Shown here piece after piece: positions 40,686-46,435 of a stretch of DNA of 64,000 nt. Within the stretch, counting starts at the first letter, position 1, and each line of letters opens with the position of its first letter. The stretch is taken from positions 62,001-126,000 of the forward strand of contig JAHBMJ010000146.1 of NCBI GenBank assembly GCA_018398765.1. Reading direction: 5' to 3'. The notes below the pieces were generated by a model. It worked only from the letters and a program-made list of their open reading frames with translations, was not told the DNA's origin and ran no database searches. The DNA is from Chromera velia (lineage: Eukaryota > Sar > Chromeraceae). Position numbers and translations under genes: made by a program.

Positions 40686-42323
40686 ATGGCGCGGACGGGC
40701 GGGCAATTGGTGGTCGACGCGCTGGTCGCCGACGGGGTCACGCAGGCGTTCTGCGTGCCCGGCGAGAGCTTTCTTCCGATCCTCGATGCGCTGCACGATA
40801 CGCCTTCGATCCGGCTGACGGTCGCCCGTCAGGAAGGCGGCGCGGCGATGATGGCCGACGCTCATGCCAAGCTGACCGGTCGACCCGGCATCTGCCTTGT
40901 CACGCGCGGGCCGGGCGCGGCCAACGCCTATGCCGGCGTGCATGTGGCCGCCCAGGATTCGACGCCGATGATCGTACTGGTCGGCCAGATCGCGACGGGC
41001 GACATGGATCGCGAGGCTTTCCAGGAGATCGACGTCAAGGCGATGTTCGGCGACCAGGTCAAATGGGCCGCGCAGGTCAACGAGACCGGGCGCCTGCCCG
41101 AATATCTGGCGCGCGCCTTCTCGCTGGCGCAGTCCGGCCGCCCCGGTCCGGTCGTTCTGGCGCTGCCCGAAGACGTGCTGAGCGGCACGGCGGAGACGGT
41201 GGCCGCGCCGGCGTCCGCGCCCGTCCAGGCGCATCCGTCACCCGCCGGGATGGACCGGTTCGGCGCCATGCTGCGGGCGGCCGAGCGGCCGCTTCTCATC
41301 GCCGGCGGGCCGGGCTGGGATGCCGGTCTCGTCGACCGGTTCGTCGCCTTCGCCGAGCGCTGGGCGCTGCCGGTCTCTTGCGCGTTCCGGGCCCAGGACC
41401 GGTTCCCGAACACCCATCGGAACTATGCCGGCGACGCCGGCCTCGGCATCAATCCGGCCCTTGCCGAACGGATCGGCCGATCCGATCTGGTGATCGCGCT
41501 CGGCGCCCGGCTCGGCGATTGCACGACCTCGGGCTACACGCTGTTCGACAGCCCGGTGCCGAAGCAGCCGCTCGTCCACATCCATCCCGAACCGGACGAA
41601 CTCGGCCATGTCTATCGGCCGACGCTGCCGATCGCCGCGAGCGTCGGCGCGTTCATCGAAGCGGCTGGGACGCTCGATGCGCCGGCCGATCCGGTCTGGG
41701 CGGACTGGACGAAGCAAGCGAACGCCGCCTATCGCGCCTGGAGCGACGCGGCGACGCCGATGCCCGGCGCGGTCAACTGGGGTGAAGCGGTGATCTGGCT
41801 GCGCGAGAACCTGCCCGCCGACGCGATCCTGACGAACGGGGCGGGCAACTATGCCGCCTGGCTGCACCGCTTCTATCGGCACCGGGCCTACCGGACGCAA
41901 CTGGCGCCGACCTCCGGCTCGATGGGATACGGCCTGCCGGCCGCGATCGCCGCCAAGCTGGCCGCGCCTGACCGGACGGTGATCGCGCTTGCCGGTGATG
42001 GCTGCCTGCAGATGACGGTGCAGGAACTGGGCACGCTGGCCGAGGCGGACCTCGCCATCATCGTGCTGGTCGTCAACAATTCCATGTACGGCACCATCCG
42101 CATGCATCAGGAGATGCACTATCCGGGCCGGGTCTCCGGCACGTCGCTGGTCAATCCGGACTTCGTCGCGCTGGTAAGGGCCTATGGGCTCAAGGGCGAG
42201 CGCGTGGAGACGACCGGGCAGTTCGGGCCGGCCATGCAGCGCGCGCTTGCAGCCGACAAGGCCACGCTGATCGAGATCGTCACCGATCCGCGCGCGCTCA
42301 GCCCGACACGGGTGATGGAGTAG
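40686..42323 (+). CDS. Thiamine-diphosphate-dependent enzyme, acetolactate-synthase-like
   Basis: ThDP enzyme of 545 residues with the three-domain layout of acetolactate synthase and relatives. The N-terminal pyrimidine domain has FCVPGESFLP and the activating Glu in RQEGGAAMMADAHAK. The central domain has GARLGDCTTSG. The C-terminal domain binds cofactor through GDGCLQMTVQELGTLAEAD and NNSMYG. The central region lacks a clear FAD-binding signature, so a decarboxylase or carboligase other than IlvB is likely. A GGGAGAGGCGC sequence precedes the ATG at 40686. It is 43 bases after phnN and may be cotranscribed; a role in that pathway is only suggested by position. Confidence 0.88.
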   Translation: MARTGGQLVVDALVADGVTQAFCVPGESFLPILDALHDTPSIRLTVARQEGGAAMMADAHAKLTGRPGICLVTRGPGAANAYAGVHVAAQDSTPMIVLVGQIATGDMDREAFQEIDVKAMFGDQVKWAAQVNETGRLPEYLARAFSLAQSGRPGPVVLALPEDVLSGTAETVAAPASAPVQAHPSPAGMDRFGAMLRAAERPLLIAGGPGWDAGLVDRFVAFAERWALPVSCAFRAQDRFPNTHRNYAGDAGLGINPALAERIGRSDLVIALGARLGDCTTSGYTLFDSPVPKQPLVHIHPEPDELGHVYRPTLPIAASVGAFIEAAGTLDAPADPVWADWTKQANAAYRAWSDAATPMPGAVNWGEAVIWLRENLPADAILTNGAGNYAAWLHRFYRHRAYRTQLAPTSGSMGYGLPAAIAAKLAAPDRTVIALAGDGCLQMTVQELGTLAEADLAIIVLVVNNSMYGTIRMHQEMHYPGRVSGTSLVNPDFVALVRAYGLKGERVETTGQFGPAMQRALAADKATLIEIVTDPRALSPTRVME

Positions 42324-42461: not shown

Positions 42462-42481
42462 TGGTGGAGCCAAGGGGAATC

Positions 42482-42530
<49 letters not shown>

Positions 42531-42537
42531 TGGCCCC
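42462..42537 (-). tRNA. tRNA-Ala (anticodon GGC)
   Basis: Read on the minus strand, a full cloverleaf of 76 bases with encoded CCA. The acceptor stem GGGGCCA pairs with TGGCTCC. The anticodon arm is CTTGC-ATGGCAT-GCAAG with GGC in the loop, and the T-arm contains GGTTCGATTCC. It reads GCC codons. Confidence 0.97.
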
Positions 42538-42654: not shown

Positions 42655-43074
42655 TCAATCATCGTCATCGTCGTTGATGTCGACGATGCCGCTGACGTCG
42701 TCGTCATCATCGTCGTCATCGTCGGGAAGGAAGGTGTCGTCGTCGGACTCGTCCTCGTCGAGCACCTCGTCATCCTCGCTCTCGTCGAGATCGGGCAGCT
42801 TCTCGGAGGCCGGCGCGGTCTCCTCGTCGGCTTCCTCGAGCGACAGCACTTCGGGGCCCTCGGTCTCCGCATCGTCCTCGGTTTCCTTTTCGGTCGTCGC
42901 CGCTTCGGTCTCTTCGGCCTTCTCCTCGATCGGGTCCGAGCCGGGGTCTTCGAAGAAGGACAGCGGATAGCTCTTGCCCGTATAGGGCGAGACGATCGGG
43001 TCCTTGTTCAGATCGTAGAATTTGCGTCCCGTTTCCGGGCAAACGCGCTTGGTTCCAAGTTCTGGTTTCGCCAC
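42655..43074 (-). CDS. TIGR02300 family protein (FYDLNKDP motif)
   Basis: An alphaproteobacterial protein of unknown function, 139 residues from a GTG at 43074. The N-terminal domain of about 45 residues, with KRVCPETGRKFYDLNKDP and SPYTGKSYPLSFF, looks like a small zinc-ribbon-type fold. The remainder is extremely acidic (runs of Asp and Glu to the last residue) and likely disordered. A longer in-frame extension upstream is rejected because the family begins at AKPELGTKR. In relatives this gene stands next to aroA-cmk-rpsA, divergently, as here. Confidence 0.88.
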   Translation of the reverse strand: MAKPELGTKRVCPETGRKFYDLNKDPIVSPYTGKSYPLSFFEDPGSDPIEEKAEETEAATTEKETEDDAETEGPEVLSLEEADEETAPASEKLPDLDESEDDEVLDEDESDDDTFLPDDDDDDDDDVSGIVDINDDDDD

Positions 43075-43312
43075 GGCCGGGCCCCTTCGAGTCGTCGTCA
43101 AGAATCGTGGATTGCGCAGGAAGTCGATGCGCGCCTGTATGGTCAGGCCTTTCAGGGTGGACCGGTGCATAACGGCAAGCGACCACACTGTCAAAGCCAA
43201 TTCGTGACGCCAATTGGGGCCATTTCGCCAAGGCTTCAACCCCTGCGCACCGGGCTTTTGCGGCCCGTGGTTTGACGCGCCGCCCCCGCTGGCCTATGCG
43301 CGGCCGACCGCC

Positions 43313-43966
43313 ATGCGCCAGCCCAAGATGACCGCATCCGACAACCATCTCGATATCGTCCTTGCCGGCCTCGCCGCCGGCCGCACCCTGCTGCAGTCGT
43401 CCCGGTCCGGCGATCGTCCGCTGCTCGAGGCGATGGCGGCGCTCGGCGCCCGGATCGAACGGACGGACGCGGGCATCGCGGTGACCGGCGCCGGCAATGG
43501 CTGTCTGCTCGAGCCGGTGACGACGCTTGCTCTTGAAGATGCCGATGCCGCGCTTCTGGTGGCGGGCCTTGTCGCGCCCTATGACATGGCCTCGCGCATC
43601 GCCTGCCGGTCGGCCCTGCCGGACGCCGAACGTGACGCGCTTCTTGCCGCGACCGCCGCGATGGGCATTCAGGCCAGCGCACCGGACGCCGAGACCATCG
43701 TGCTCGCCGGCCAGGCCTCGGCGGTGCCGGCGCGCCATGCCTGTGCGAGCTGGAGCGAGACGGTGCTGCGGGCAATCGCGCTTGCGGCGCTGAACACGCC
43801 GGGGATCACGCGGCTCGAAGGCGAGGGCGCAGCGCCGACCGGGCTCGCCCGGCGCCTCGGTGCCTTCGGCGCGCAATGCCGGATCGACGACTGCGACGGC
43901 GGCTGGTCGCTCGCCGTGACCGGCCAGTGCGTGCTGCGTGCCGCCGAAGCGGAGAGCGCGTCATGA
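43313..43966 (+). CDS. Half-length, catalytically dead-looking EPSP-synthase-like protein at the aroA locus
   Basis: A 217-residue protein that aligns by eye with residues about 20-240 of 3-phosphoshikimate 1-carboxyvinyltransferase (AroA, about 440). Shared landmarks are [63 protein letters not shown] and a final LGAFGAQ. Active-site motifs are gone: DKSISHR is replaced by TASDNHL, NAGTG by EDADAA, and RRPM is absent. The second half of the enzyme is missing. The frame is intact, with ordinary codon use and an ATGA overlap with cmk. It is either a degrading remnant or a repurposed single lobe. The start is 43313 or 43328. Confidence 0.75.
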
Positions 43967-44598
43967 TGCCGGTGATCGCGATCGACGGTCCCGCCGCCTC
44001 GGGCAAGGGCACGCTCGCCCGGCGGATCGCCGCCCATTACGGGTTGCGGCATCTCGATACGGGGCTGACCTATCGGGCGGTCGCGCATGCGCTGCTGGCG
44101 GCCGATGCGCCGCTCGACGACGAGGCGCGTGCGATCGAGGCCGCCGAAACGCTCGACCTTGCCGCGATGGATCGCACGATCCTCGCCGATCACGGCGTCG
44201 GCGAGGCGGCTTCCCGCATCGCGGTCATGCCCGGCGTGCGGCGGGCGCTGGTCGCCCGCCAGCGCGCCTTTGCCGCGACACCGCCGGGCGCGGTGCTGGA
44301 CGGCCGCGACATCGGCACGGTCGTCTGCCCGGACGCGCCGGTGAAGCTCTACGTCACCGCCGGCGCGCCCGAACGGGCCAGACGCCGCTATCACGAGATC
44401 CTGGCAGGCGGCGGCGAGGCGGACGAGGCGGCGATCCTCGCCGACATCGAGCGGCGCGACGCGCGCGACATGGGACGCTCGGACTCGCCGCTGCGGCCGG
44501 CGAACGACGCGCACTTGCTTGACACCTCCGATATGACTATAGAAGCGGCGTTCCAGGCCGCCCGCGCGATCATAGACCGGGCGCTGGACCGTATTTGA
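43963..44598 (+). CDS. cmk: Cytidylate kinase
   Basis: Phosphorylates CMP and dCMP; 211 residues. P-loop GPAASGKGT (9-17), [11 protein letters not shown] (31-41), the [20 protein letters not shown] segment and [18 protein letters not shown] are all family signatures. The ATG at 43963 overlaps the stop of the EPSPS-like gene, so their translation is coupled, as aroA and cmk commonly are. It lies in the conserved neighbourhood ahead of rpsA. Confidence 0.96.
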
Positions 44599-44728: not shown

Positions 44729-46435
44729 ATGTCAGAACTGAACCCCACGCGGGAGGACTTCGCCAGCCTCCTCGAATCCTCGTTTGCCAGCCAGGATGCG
44801 GCCGAGGGACGTGTCGTCGAAGGCACGATCACGGCCATCGAGAAGGACATGGCCATCGTCGATGTCGGCCTTAAGGTCGAAGGGCGCATCGCACTCAAGG
44901 AATTCGGAGCGAAAGCCAAGGACGGCACGCTCAATGTCGGCGACACGGTCGAGGTCTATGTCGAGCGCGTCGAGAACGCGCTGGGCGAAGCCGTCCTGTC
45001 GCGCGACAAGGCCCGGCGCGAGGAAGCCTGGGTCAAGCTCGAAGCCAAGTTCAACAATGGCGAACGGGTCGAAGGCCACATCTTCAACCAGGTCAAGGGC
45101 GGCTTCACCGTCGATCTGGACGGCGCCGTGGCGTTCCTGCCGCGCTCGCAGGTCGACATCCGCCCGATCCGCGACGTCACGCCGCTGATGCACACGCCGC
45201 AGCCGTTCGAGATCCTGAAGATGGACAAGCGCCGCGGCAACATCGTCGTGTCGCGCCGCACCGTGCTCGAGGAAAGCCGCGCCGAACAGCGCTCGGAGAT
45301 CGTCCAGAACCTCGAAGAGGGCCAGGTCGTCGAGGGCGTGGTCAAGAACATCACCGACTATGGCGCGTTCGTGGACCTTGGCGGCATCGACGGGCTGCTG
45401 CACGTCACCGACATGGCATGGCGCCGGGTGAACCATCCGACCGAGATCCTGCAGATCGGCCAGACCGTGAAGGTGCAGATCATCCGCATCAACCAGGAGA
45501 CGCACCGCATCTCGCTGGGCATGAAACAGCTCGAGGCCGACCCCTGGGAAGGCATCGGTACGAAGTATCCGATGGGCGTGAAGATCACCGGCCGGGTCAC
45601 CAACATCACCGACTATGGCGCGTTCGTCGAGGTCGAGCCGGGCATCGAGGGTCTGATCCACGTCTCCGAAATGTCTTGGACCAAGAAGAACGTTCATCCG
45701 GGCAAGATCCTGTCGACCAGCCAGGAAGTCGAGGTGGTCGTGCTCGAGGTCGATCCGGACAAGCGCCGCATCTCGCTCGGCCTCAAGCAGACGCTCAACA
45801 ACCCCTGGGAAGAGTTCGCGCAGAACCATCCGGTCGGCGACGTCGTCGAGGGCGAGGTCAAGAACAAGACCGAGTTCGGCCTGTTCATCGGCCTTGATGG
45901 CGATGTCGACGGCATGGTCCACCTGTCTGATCTCGACTGGAACCGTTCCGGCGAGGACGCCATCGAGGACTATCACAAGGGCGACACGGTCAAGGCCGTG
46001 GTGCTCGACGTCGATGTCGACAAGGAGCGCATCTCGCTGGGCATCAAGCAGCTGACCAAGGATGCGATCGCCGATGCGGCCGCTTCGGGCACGCTGCGCA
46101 AGGGCGCCGTCGTCACCTGCGAAGTGACCGGCATCACCGACGGCGGTATCGAGGTCAAGCTGGTCGATCACGATCTGGACAGCTTCATCCGCCGGTCGGA
46201 CCTGTCGCGCGACCGCGACGAGCAGCGCCCCGAGCGCTTCTCGGTGGGCCAGCGTCTGGACGCCCGCGTCACCCAGTTCAACAAGAAGGACCGCCGGGTT
46301 TCGGTCTCCATCAAGGCGCTGGAAATCGCCGAGGAGAAGGAAGCGGTGGCGCAGTTCGGCTCGACCGACTCGGGCGCCTCGCTCGGCGACATTCTGGGCG
46401 CCGCGCTCAAGAAGCAGGACGAAGGCGACAATTAA
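44729..46435 (+). CDS. rpsA: 30S ribosomal protein S1
   Basis: RNA-binding ribosomal protein of 568 residues with six S1 motifs in series; examples begin at VVEGTITAIEKDMAIVDVG, VVEGVVKNITDYGAFVDLGG and VKITGRVTNITDYGAFVEVE. The last two repeats are more divergent, as usual. It helps recruit messages lacking strong Shine-Dalgarno sites. A 130-base leader separates it from cmk, with CAGGAG before the ATG, and a strong terminator follows. Confidence 0.98.
   Translation: MSELNPTREDFASLLESSFASQDAAEGRVVEGTITAIEKDMAIVDVGLKVEGRIALKEFGAKAKDGTLNVGDTVEVYVERVENALGEAVLSRDKARREEAWVKLEAKFNNGERVEGHIFNQVKGGFTVDLDGAVAFLPRSQVDIRPIRDVTPLMHTPQPFEILKMDKRRGNIVVSRRTVLEESRAEQRSEIVQNLEEGQVVEGVVKNITDYGAFVDLGGIDGLLHVTDMAWRRVNHPTEILQIGQTVKVQIIRINQETHRISLGMKQLEADPWEGIGTKYPMGVKITGRVTNITDYGAFVEVEPGIEGLIHVSEMSWTKKNVHPGKILSTSQEVEVVVLEVDPDKRRISLGLKQTLNNPWEEFAQNHPVGDVVEGEVKNKTEFGLFIGLDGDVDGMVHLSDLDWNRSGEDAIEDYHKGDTVKAVVLDVDVDKERISLGIKQLTKDAIADAAASGTLRKGAVVTCEVTGITDGGIEVKLVDHDLDSFIRRSDLSRDRDEQRPERFSVGQRLDARVTQFNKKDRRVSVSIKALEIAEEKEAVAQFGSTDSGASLGDILGAALKKQDEGDN

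Follow-up and report, generated by a model that had tools for sequence, protein, structure and literature searches.

A selected single lobe of EPSPS in the aroA position of a small alphaproteobacterial group appears to be reused beyond catalysis

Between a TIGR02300-type gene and cmk, the window (the whole stretch of 64,000 nucleotides analysed here) carries a gene for one lobe of EPSPS, the AroA enzyme. EPSPS, like MurA, is a textbook example of a two-lobe enzyme; its active site is situated between the lobes. The lone lobe is domain II, spanning CP4 residues about 27-238, of the class II AroA (CP4-type) that ancestrally stood at this locus, and it has been kept by purifying selection since before the genus radiated; for its identity and its selection taken together, we see little room for doubt. 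Judging from sequences and a predicted fold, a small alphaproteobacterial group appears to have put half of an essential enzyme to a use beyond catalysis. The features of the locus are as follows:

42655..43074, minus strand: TIGR02300 / FYDLN_acid gene, divergent left neighbour (TIGR02300, E=8.3e-31)
43167..43194, minus strand: probable promoter of the divergent TIGR02300 gene (TTGACA ... TATGCA, read by eye; conserved CTGTCAAAGCCA block, likely the -35 region)
43272..43300, plus strand: candidate promoter of lobe-cmk(-rpsA) (TTGACG, 17-nt spacer, TATGCG; consensus match only)
43328..43966, plus strand: single-lobe EPSPS (AroA domain II) gene, 212 aa (ATG conserved in 6/6 genomes; CP4 profile match; AlphaFold model with CP4 structural match)
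43963..44598, plus strand: cmk, (d)CMP kinase (Pfam Cytidylate_kin, E=4e-53; start overlaps the lobe stop in ATGA)
44729..46435, plus strand: rpsA, ribosomal protein S1 (82% DNA identity to an rpsA-annotated region of Sinorhizobium)

Farther left, a tRNA-Ala (GGC) gene lies at 42462-42537 on the minus strand, between the gene of a thiamine-pyrophosphate-type enzyme (40686-42323, by eye) and the TIGR02300 gene.

In relatives, the ancestral gene order is TIGR02300, aroA, cmk, rpsA. Class II aroA adjoined the TIGR02300 gene in all 38 relative loci examined, with cmk directly behind it in most, and therefore the lone lobe occupies the ancestral aroA slot. The neighbour matches and these loci thus bear out the original prediction, which had placed the gene in the exact locus of aroA with TIGR02300 on one side and cmk-rpsA on the other. 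The ATGA overlap with cmk, likewise part of that prediction, was found in the window and in five relatives. A Shine-Dalgarno-like GGAG of cmk is situated within the lobe gene at 43951-43954; it reads GGAGG in G001, G002 and G175, and GGAG or GGAGG is present in most of the six genomes. Upstream of the lobe gene, the TTTGAC and TATGC columns are invariant across the six-genome alignment.

The open reading frame at 43313-43966 (plus strand) comprises 217 codons and is intact, as originally described. Its length as a gene has to be revised, however. The in-frame ATG at 43313, which would yield 217 aa, is shared only by the window and its closest relative, whereas the ATG at 43328 is invariant in the alignment of upstream DNA from six genomes; because of this, the gene probably starts at 43328 and encodes 212 aa. 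The six orthologues measure about 212-228 aa each and all have intact frames. A sequencing or assembly error hiding a full aroA, which had been named as a possible objection, is ruled out by the five further, independent genomes with the identical arrangement.

The lone lobe was found in all five species of the genus represented in the genome collection (282-358 bits) in addition to the window, and in each of them the TIGR02300 gene and cmk flank it; it is not a pseudogene of a single strain. Two of the carriers are Phyllobacteriaceae bacterium bin.32 and Roseitalea sp. HXMU1422-4 (NCBI taxonomy places Roseitalea in Ahrensiaceae, Hyphomicrobiales). The closest relative of the window, G101, shares 97.0% identity with it across 3.6 kb. 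Among the 297 genomes of a family sample, none but these five scored above the normal AroA level. Profile searches for further lone lobes in 61 relatives, 397 genomes of the order and 385 genomes of the class yielded none. A single scan of genome contigs is not exhaustive; it recovered just two of the five lone lobes. The other profile matches had open frames mostly of about 450 aa and scored at most about 125 bits, as expected of full-length class II AroA.

The window itself (G000:C4039:62001-126000) is a Roseitalea-like bacterial contig inside a 178-Mb assembly of 4040 contigs and eukaryotic look; the bacterium may be an associate or a contaminant. PF00275 matches in this assembly were confined to contig C954, in separated pieces like exons, and the AroA and MurA of the bacterium were not found; the rest of its genome is apparently absent from the assembly.

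Homology to AroA can be recognized from a single sequence. The lone lobe matches TIGR01356 over residues 15-169 (E=4.9e-5) with 22.3 bits, below the enzyme threshold set by the curated cut-off of 287.25; a Pfam search with the window protein gave no match at E<=1. A profile built from the six orthologues matched CP4 EPSPS at residues 31-234 (E=1.3e-27). The alignment with AroA residues about 20-240 that had been noticed from the sequence is thus beyond chance.

The fold points to the same identity. The AlphaFold2 model (five sequences) has a mean pLDDT of 86.6 and a pTM of 0.87; confidence is low at the two termini alone. Among solved structures, CP4 EPSPS comes nearest (2gg6, chain range 21-240; Z 28.0, rmsd 2.4 A over 212 residues), and it was also matched in Foldseek (E=2e-16). 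Isolated N-lobes of EPSPS from E. coli (1p88) and Vibrio (3ti2) match the model too, and since these were solved alone, such a unit can fold by itself. The model covers only the CP4 chain range 21-240, without the two-lobe architecture; what belongs to domain I (about residues 1-26 and everything past about 240) is gone. Truncation points coincide with both domain crossovers, leaving essentially domain II. Structure prediction and structural alignment therefore agree with the proposal of one complete EPSPS lobe, and the protein is predicted to have a complete lobe fold.

What the lobe has lost was assessed by comparing the six orthologues with 32 sister class II AroAs. Within the lobe span, 111 positions are at least 95% conserved in AroA; all six lobes retain 28 of them, and 50 are retained by no lobe. 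K28, R33, R104, R128, Q175, K177 and R200 (CP4 numbering) are absent from all six. Five of these (K28, R33, R128, Q175, R200), each present in at least 95% of the sister AroAs, we take from established knowledge plus conservation to be EPSPS domain-II ligand residues for S3P/PEP. Four of the six lobes still have S29, and five still have S173. This comparison confirmed the claimed absence of the active-site motifs. Because key domain-II ligand residues are lost in six orthologues, the further claim that the lobe is catalytically dead is upheld as far as residues can tell: it would be a catalyst by no known mechanism.

The invariant positions of the lobe (n=46) fall into two kinds: i) 33 inherited from AroA, for the most part structural residues (G, A, L, P), and ii) 13 derived ones that differ from AroA and are all nonpolar. 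K28A, R33L, R104L, R200P and T203L are derived and identical in all six lobes, which places the loss of charge before the radiation of the genus; the ligand face would thus have been de-charged early and then held in that state. Nonpolar residues make up 64% of all lobe residues, and thirteen nonpolar sites out of thirteen would have a probability of about 0.003 under independence; this is no more than suggestive. The de-charged face would fit a surface for protein-protein contact or self-association, and it would fit selection for stability alone equally well, so that here, too, the pattern is only suggestive. No new conserved polar constellation was found, and hence nothing points to a specific new ligand site.

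Selection on the lobe was estimated with codon models. For three moderately diverged pairs, pairwise omega was 0.19-0.22, with an LRT against omega=1 of 50-64; the nearest pair gave 0.33 (LRT 7.8). In the same three pairs, omega was 0.04-0.06 for cmk and 0.07-0.12 for the TIGR02300 gene. On the six-sequence tree, values of 0.22, 0.05 and 0.09 were obtained for the lobe, cmk and TIGR02300, respectively, and fixing omega at 1 for the lobe cost 84 log-likelihood units (2dlnL about 169). The lobe is under weaker selection than cmk, its omega being about four times higher. Between the window and G287, dS of the lobe is about 3, near synonymous saturation, and the lobe must therefore have been retained for long. 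The original prediction had offered two outcomes, a remnant kept for a new role or one decaying without frameshifts; with omega about 0.2, far from 1, and retention throughout the genus, being kept stands and decay is rejected. Constraint from an overlapping antisense frame was also considered. Long antisense open reading frames do exist, yet most substitutions are at third positions when the codons are read in the frame of the lobe, and this source of constraint was discarded.

All five relatives encode elsewhere a complete AroA of a different type. Its motifs are all present (GSKSITNR, NAGTATR, RPI, SSQYVS, QMQD, LRVKE, DHRI), and compared with the G002 copy, those of the other four species show 78-90% identity. 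The suggestion that aroA was replaced by another copy in the genome thus proved right for these five relatives, each having a full-length second AroA with catalytic motifs. This second type occurs in 64 of the 297 genomes of the family sample. Fourteen of these genomes contain both AroA types and represent a transitional state, and about 45 have the second type without a class II match. Fifteen of the latter were inspected at the cmk locus. In 11, the TIGR02300 gene and cmk lie 190-411 bp apart, which amounts to a clean deletion of aroA; of the other four, two have an unrelated gene between TIGR02300 and cmk and two have unrelated DNA beside cmk. No lone lobe was present at any of these 15 loci of lineages that had lost class II aroA. 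Among the lineages sampled, others with the second AroA lost the old copy by deletion or overwriting, and a lobe was kept in this genus alone.

Some further observations concern these gene families. Next to cmk at loci L081 (760-1410), L087 (821-1462), L080 and L086, after loss of class II aroA, we found a small membrane-like protein, a PaiB-like one (by eye) and unrelated open reading frames. Genome G233 contains two equal-scoring copies of the second AroA type (G233:C11:969473-970726 and G233:C16:203402-204655) besides a class II match. At L009 (G001:C26), L046 (G101) and L047 (G175), a second MurA-like gene of full length was detected; it was not found in G002 and G287. In G001, this extra gene is grouped with genes that by eye are those of a GntR-type regulator, an N-acetylglucosamine-kinase-like protein and a MurQ-like protein.

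To explain these findings, we propose the following course of events. Acquisition of the second AroA would have made the old class II AroA redundant, and after a loss that removed domain I, domain II, which folds independently, would have remained in frame ahead of cmk. The former active-site face would then have lost its charges and turned hydrophobic. At present, the lobe may serve as a non-catalytic binding or self-associating module that acts through this face, its gene being transcribed from the former promoter of aroA along with cmk, perhaps also rpsA, and its translation being coupled with that of cmk. For the explanation as a whole (ancestral domain II, selected and reused as a non-catalytic module), we put the chances at about even. 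The binding-module role by itself is tentative and somewhat short of an even chance. One elaboration would have the lobe self-associate via the de-charged face, so that two lobes rebuild an EPSPS-like clamshell and the dimer binds or tunes Cmk or S1; this is a long shot, but if it were true, half an essential enzyme would have become a regulator that acts on the neighbour in its operon.

The chief competing explanation treats the lobe as a translated spacer: it would have no function of its own, ribosomes would have to pass through it to start cmk at the ATGA, and the product, being strongly translated, would only have to stay folded and soluble. One would then expect a conserved core and unconserved ligand residues, and the invariant sites are indeed chiefly structural G, A and L from AroA. 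The overlap in all six genomes and the conserved promoter directly upstream are in keeping with a spacer as well, and selection for folding would also lower omega. However, cmk has its own Shine-Dalgarno sequence in most of the six, the 11 related genomes with a clean deletion have cmk only 190-411 bp from TIGR02300, and coupling alone predicts omega near 1, not the 0.2 seen. We consider the spacer unlikely, though worth keeping in mind.

Alternatively, the lobe could be a regulatory or auxiliary subunit of the shikimate pathway, binding either to the second AroA or to a different enzyme of that pathway. The common ancestry of the fold would suit such a partnership, and within the genus the lobe always co-occurs with the second AroA. 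Yet 59 other genomes of the family sample have the second AroA with no lone lobe seen, and the S3P-binding residues are lost, which makes such a subunit improbable. An aroA pseudogene decaying slowly without frameshifts would account for the loss of the active site and domain I and for the faster evolution of the lobe relative to its neighbours; it is very hard to reconcile with six intact genomes despite saturated synonymous divergence, with the same derived residues in every species and with the rejection of omega=1, and we discard it on the intact frame in six genomes and the omega of 0.22. Finally, one half of a split EPSPS, which the absence of exactly domain I might suggest, is hardly conceivable and is likewise out, the lobe's own active-site residues being gone and PF00275 searches in the genomes of the five relatives having revealed no lone domain I and, besides the lobe, only full-length AroA and MurA-type genes.

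The relatives show both the intermediate stage, with the two AroA types side by side, and the usual outcome, in which the old copy is deleted. A course in which a displaced essential enzyme is trimmed at its domain borders and then reused thereby becomes testable. To our knowledge, isolated lobes of EPSPS or MurA were previously known only as laboratory constructs. A literature search on truncated or single-domain EPSPS, with subscription papers mostly outside its reach, returned nothing relevant. By sequence and predicted fold, the lone lobe is a piece of a known family, and we did not find a natural, selected single lobe described.

Among known systems, the lone lobe is closest to CP4-type (class II) EPSPS AroA (2gg4, 2gg6, 2ggd), with which it shares the fold of domain II (Z 28), 27-28% identity across 212 residues and the chromosomal locus that class II aroA has in relatives. 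It differs from CP4 EPSPS in having 212 instead of about 450 aa, in lacking domain I and in lacking K28, R33, R128, Q175 and R200. As a self-folding lone lobe, it resembles the laboratory-made N-terminal EPSPS domains of E. coli (1p88, 1p89) and Vibrio (3ti2), with Z 21-24 against the model. The title of 1p88 calls that domain substrate-responsive. Those constructs, however, are pieces of active enzymes with their ligand residues kept, while the present lobe comes from a natural gene under selection and has lost the ligand site. With pseudoenzymes in general it has in common a selected enzyme fold without catalytic residues, known here from sequence and a predicted fold; unlike them, it is also without half of the fold, having been cut at both domain crossovers. 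Such a compact natural single lobe offers material for studying the assembly of the EPSPS/MurA fold.
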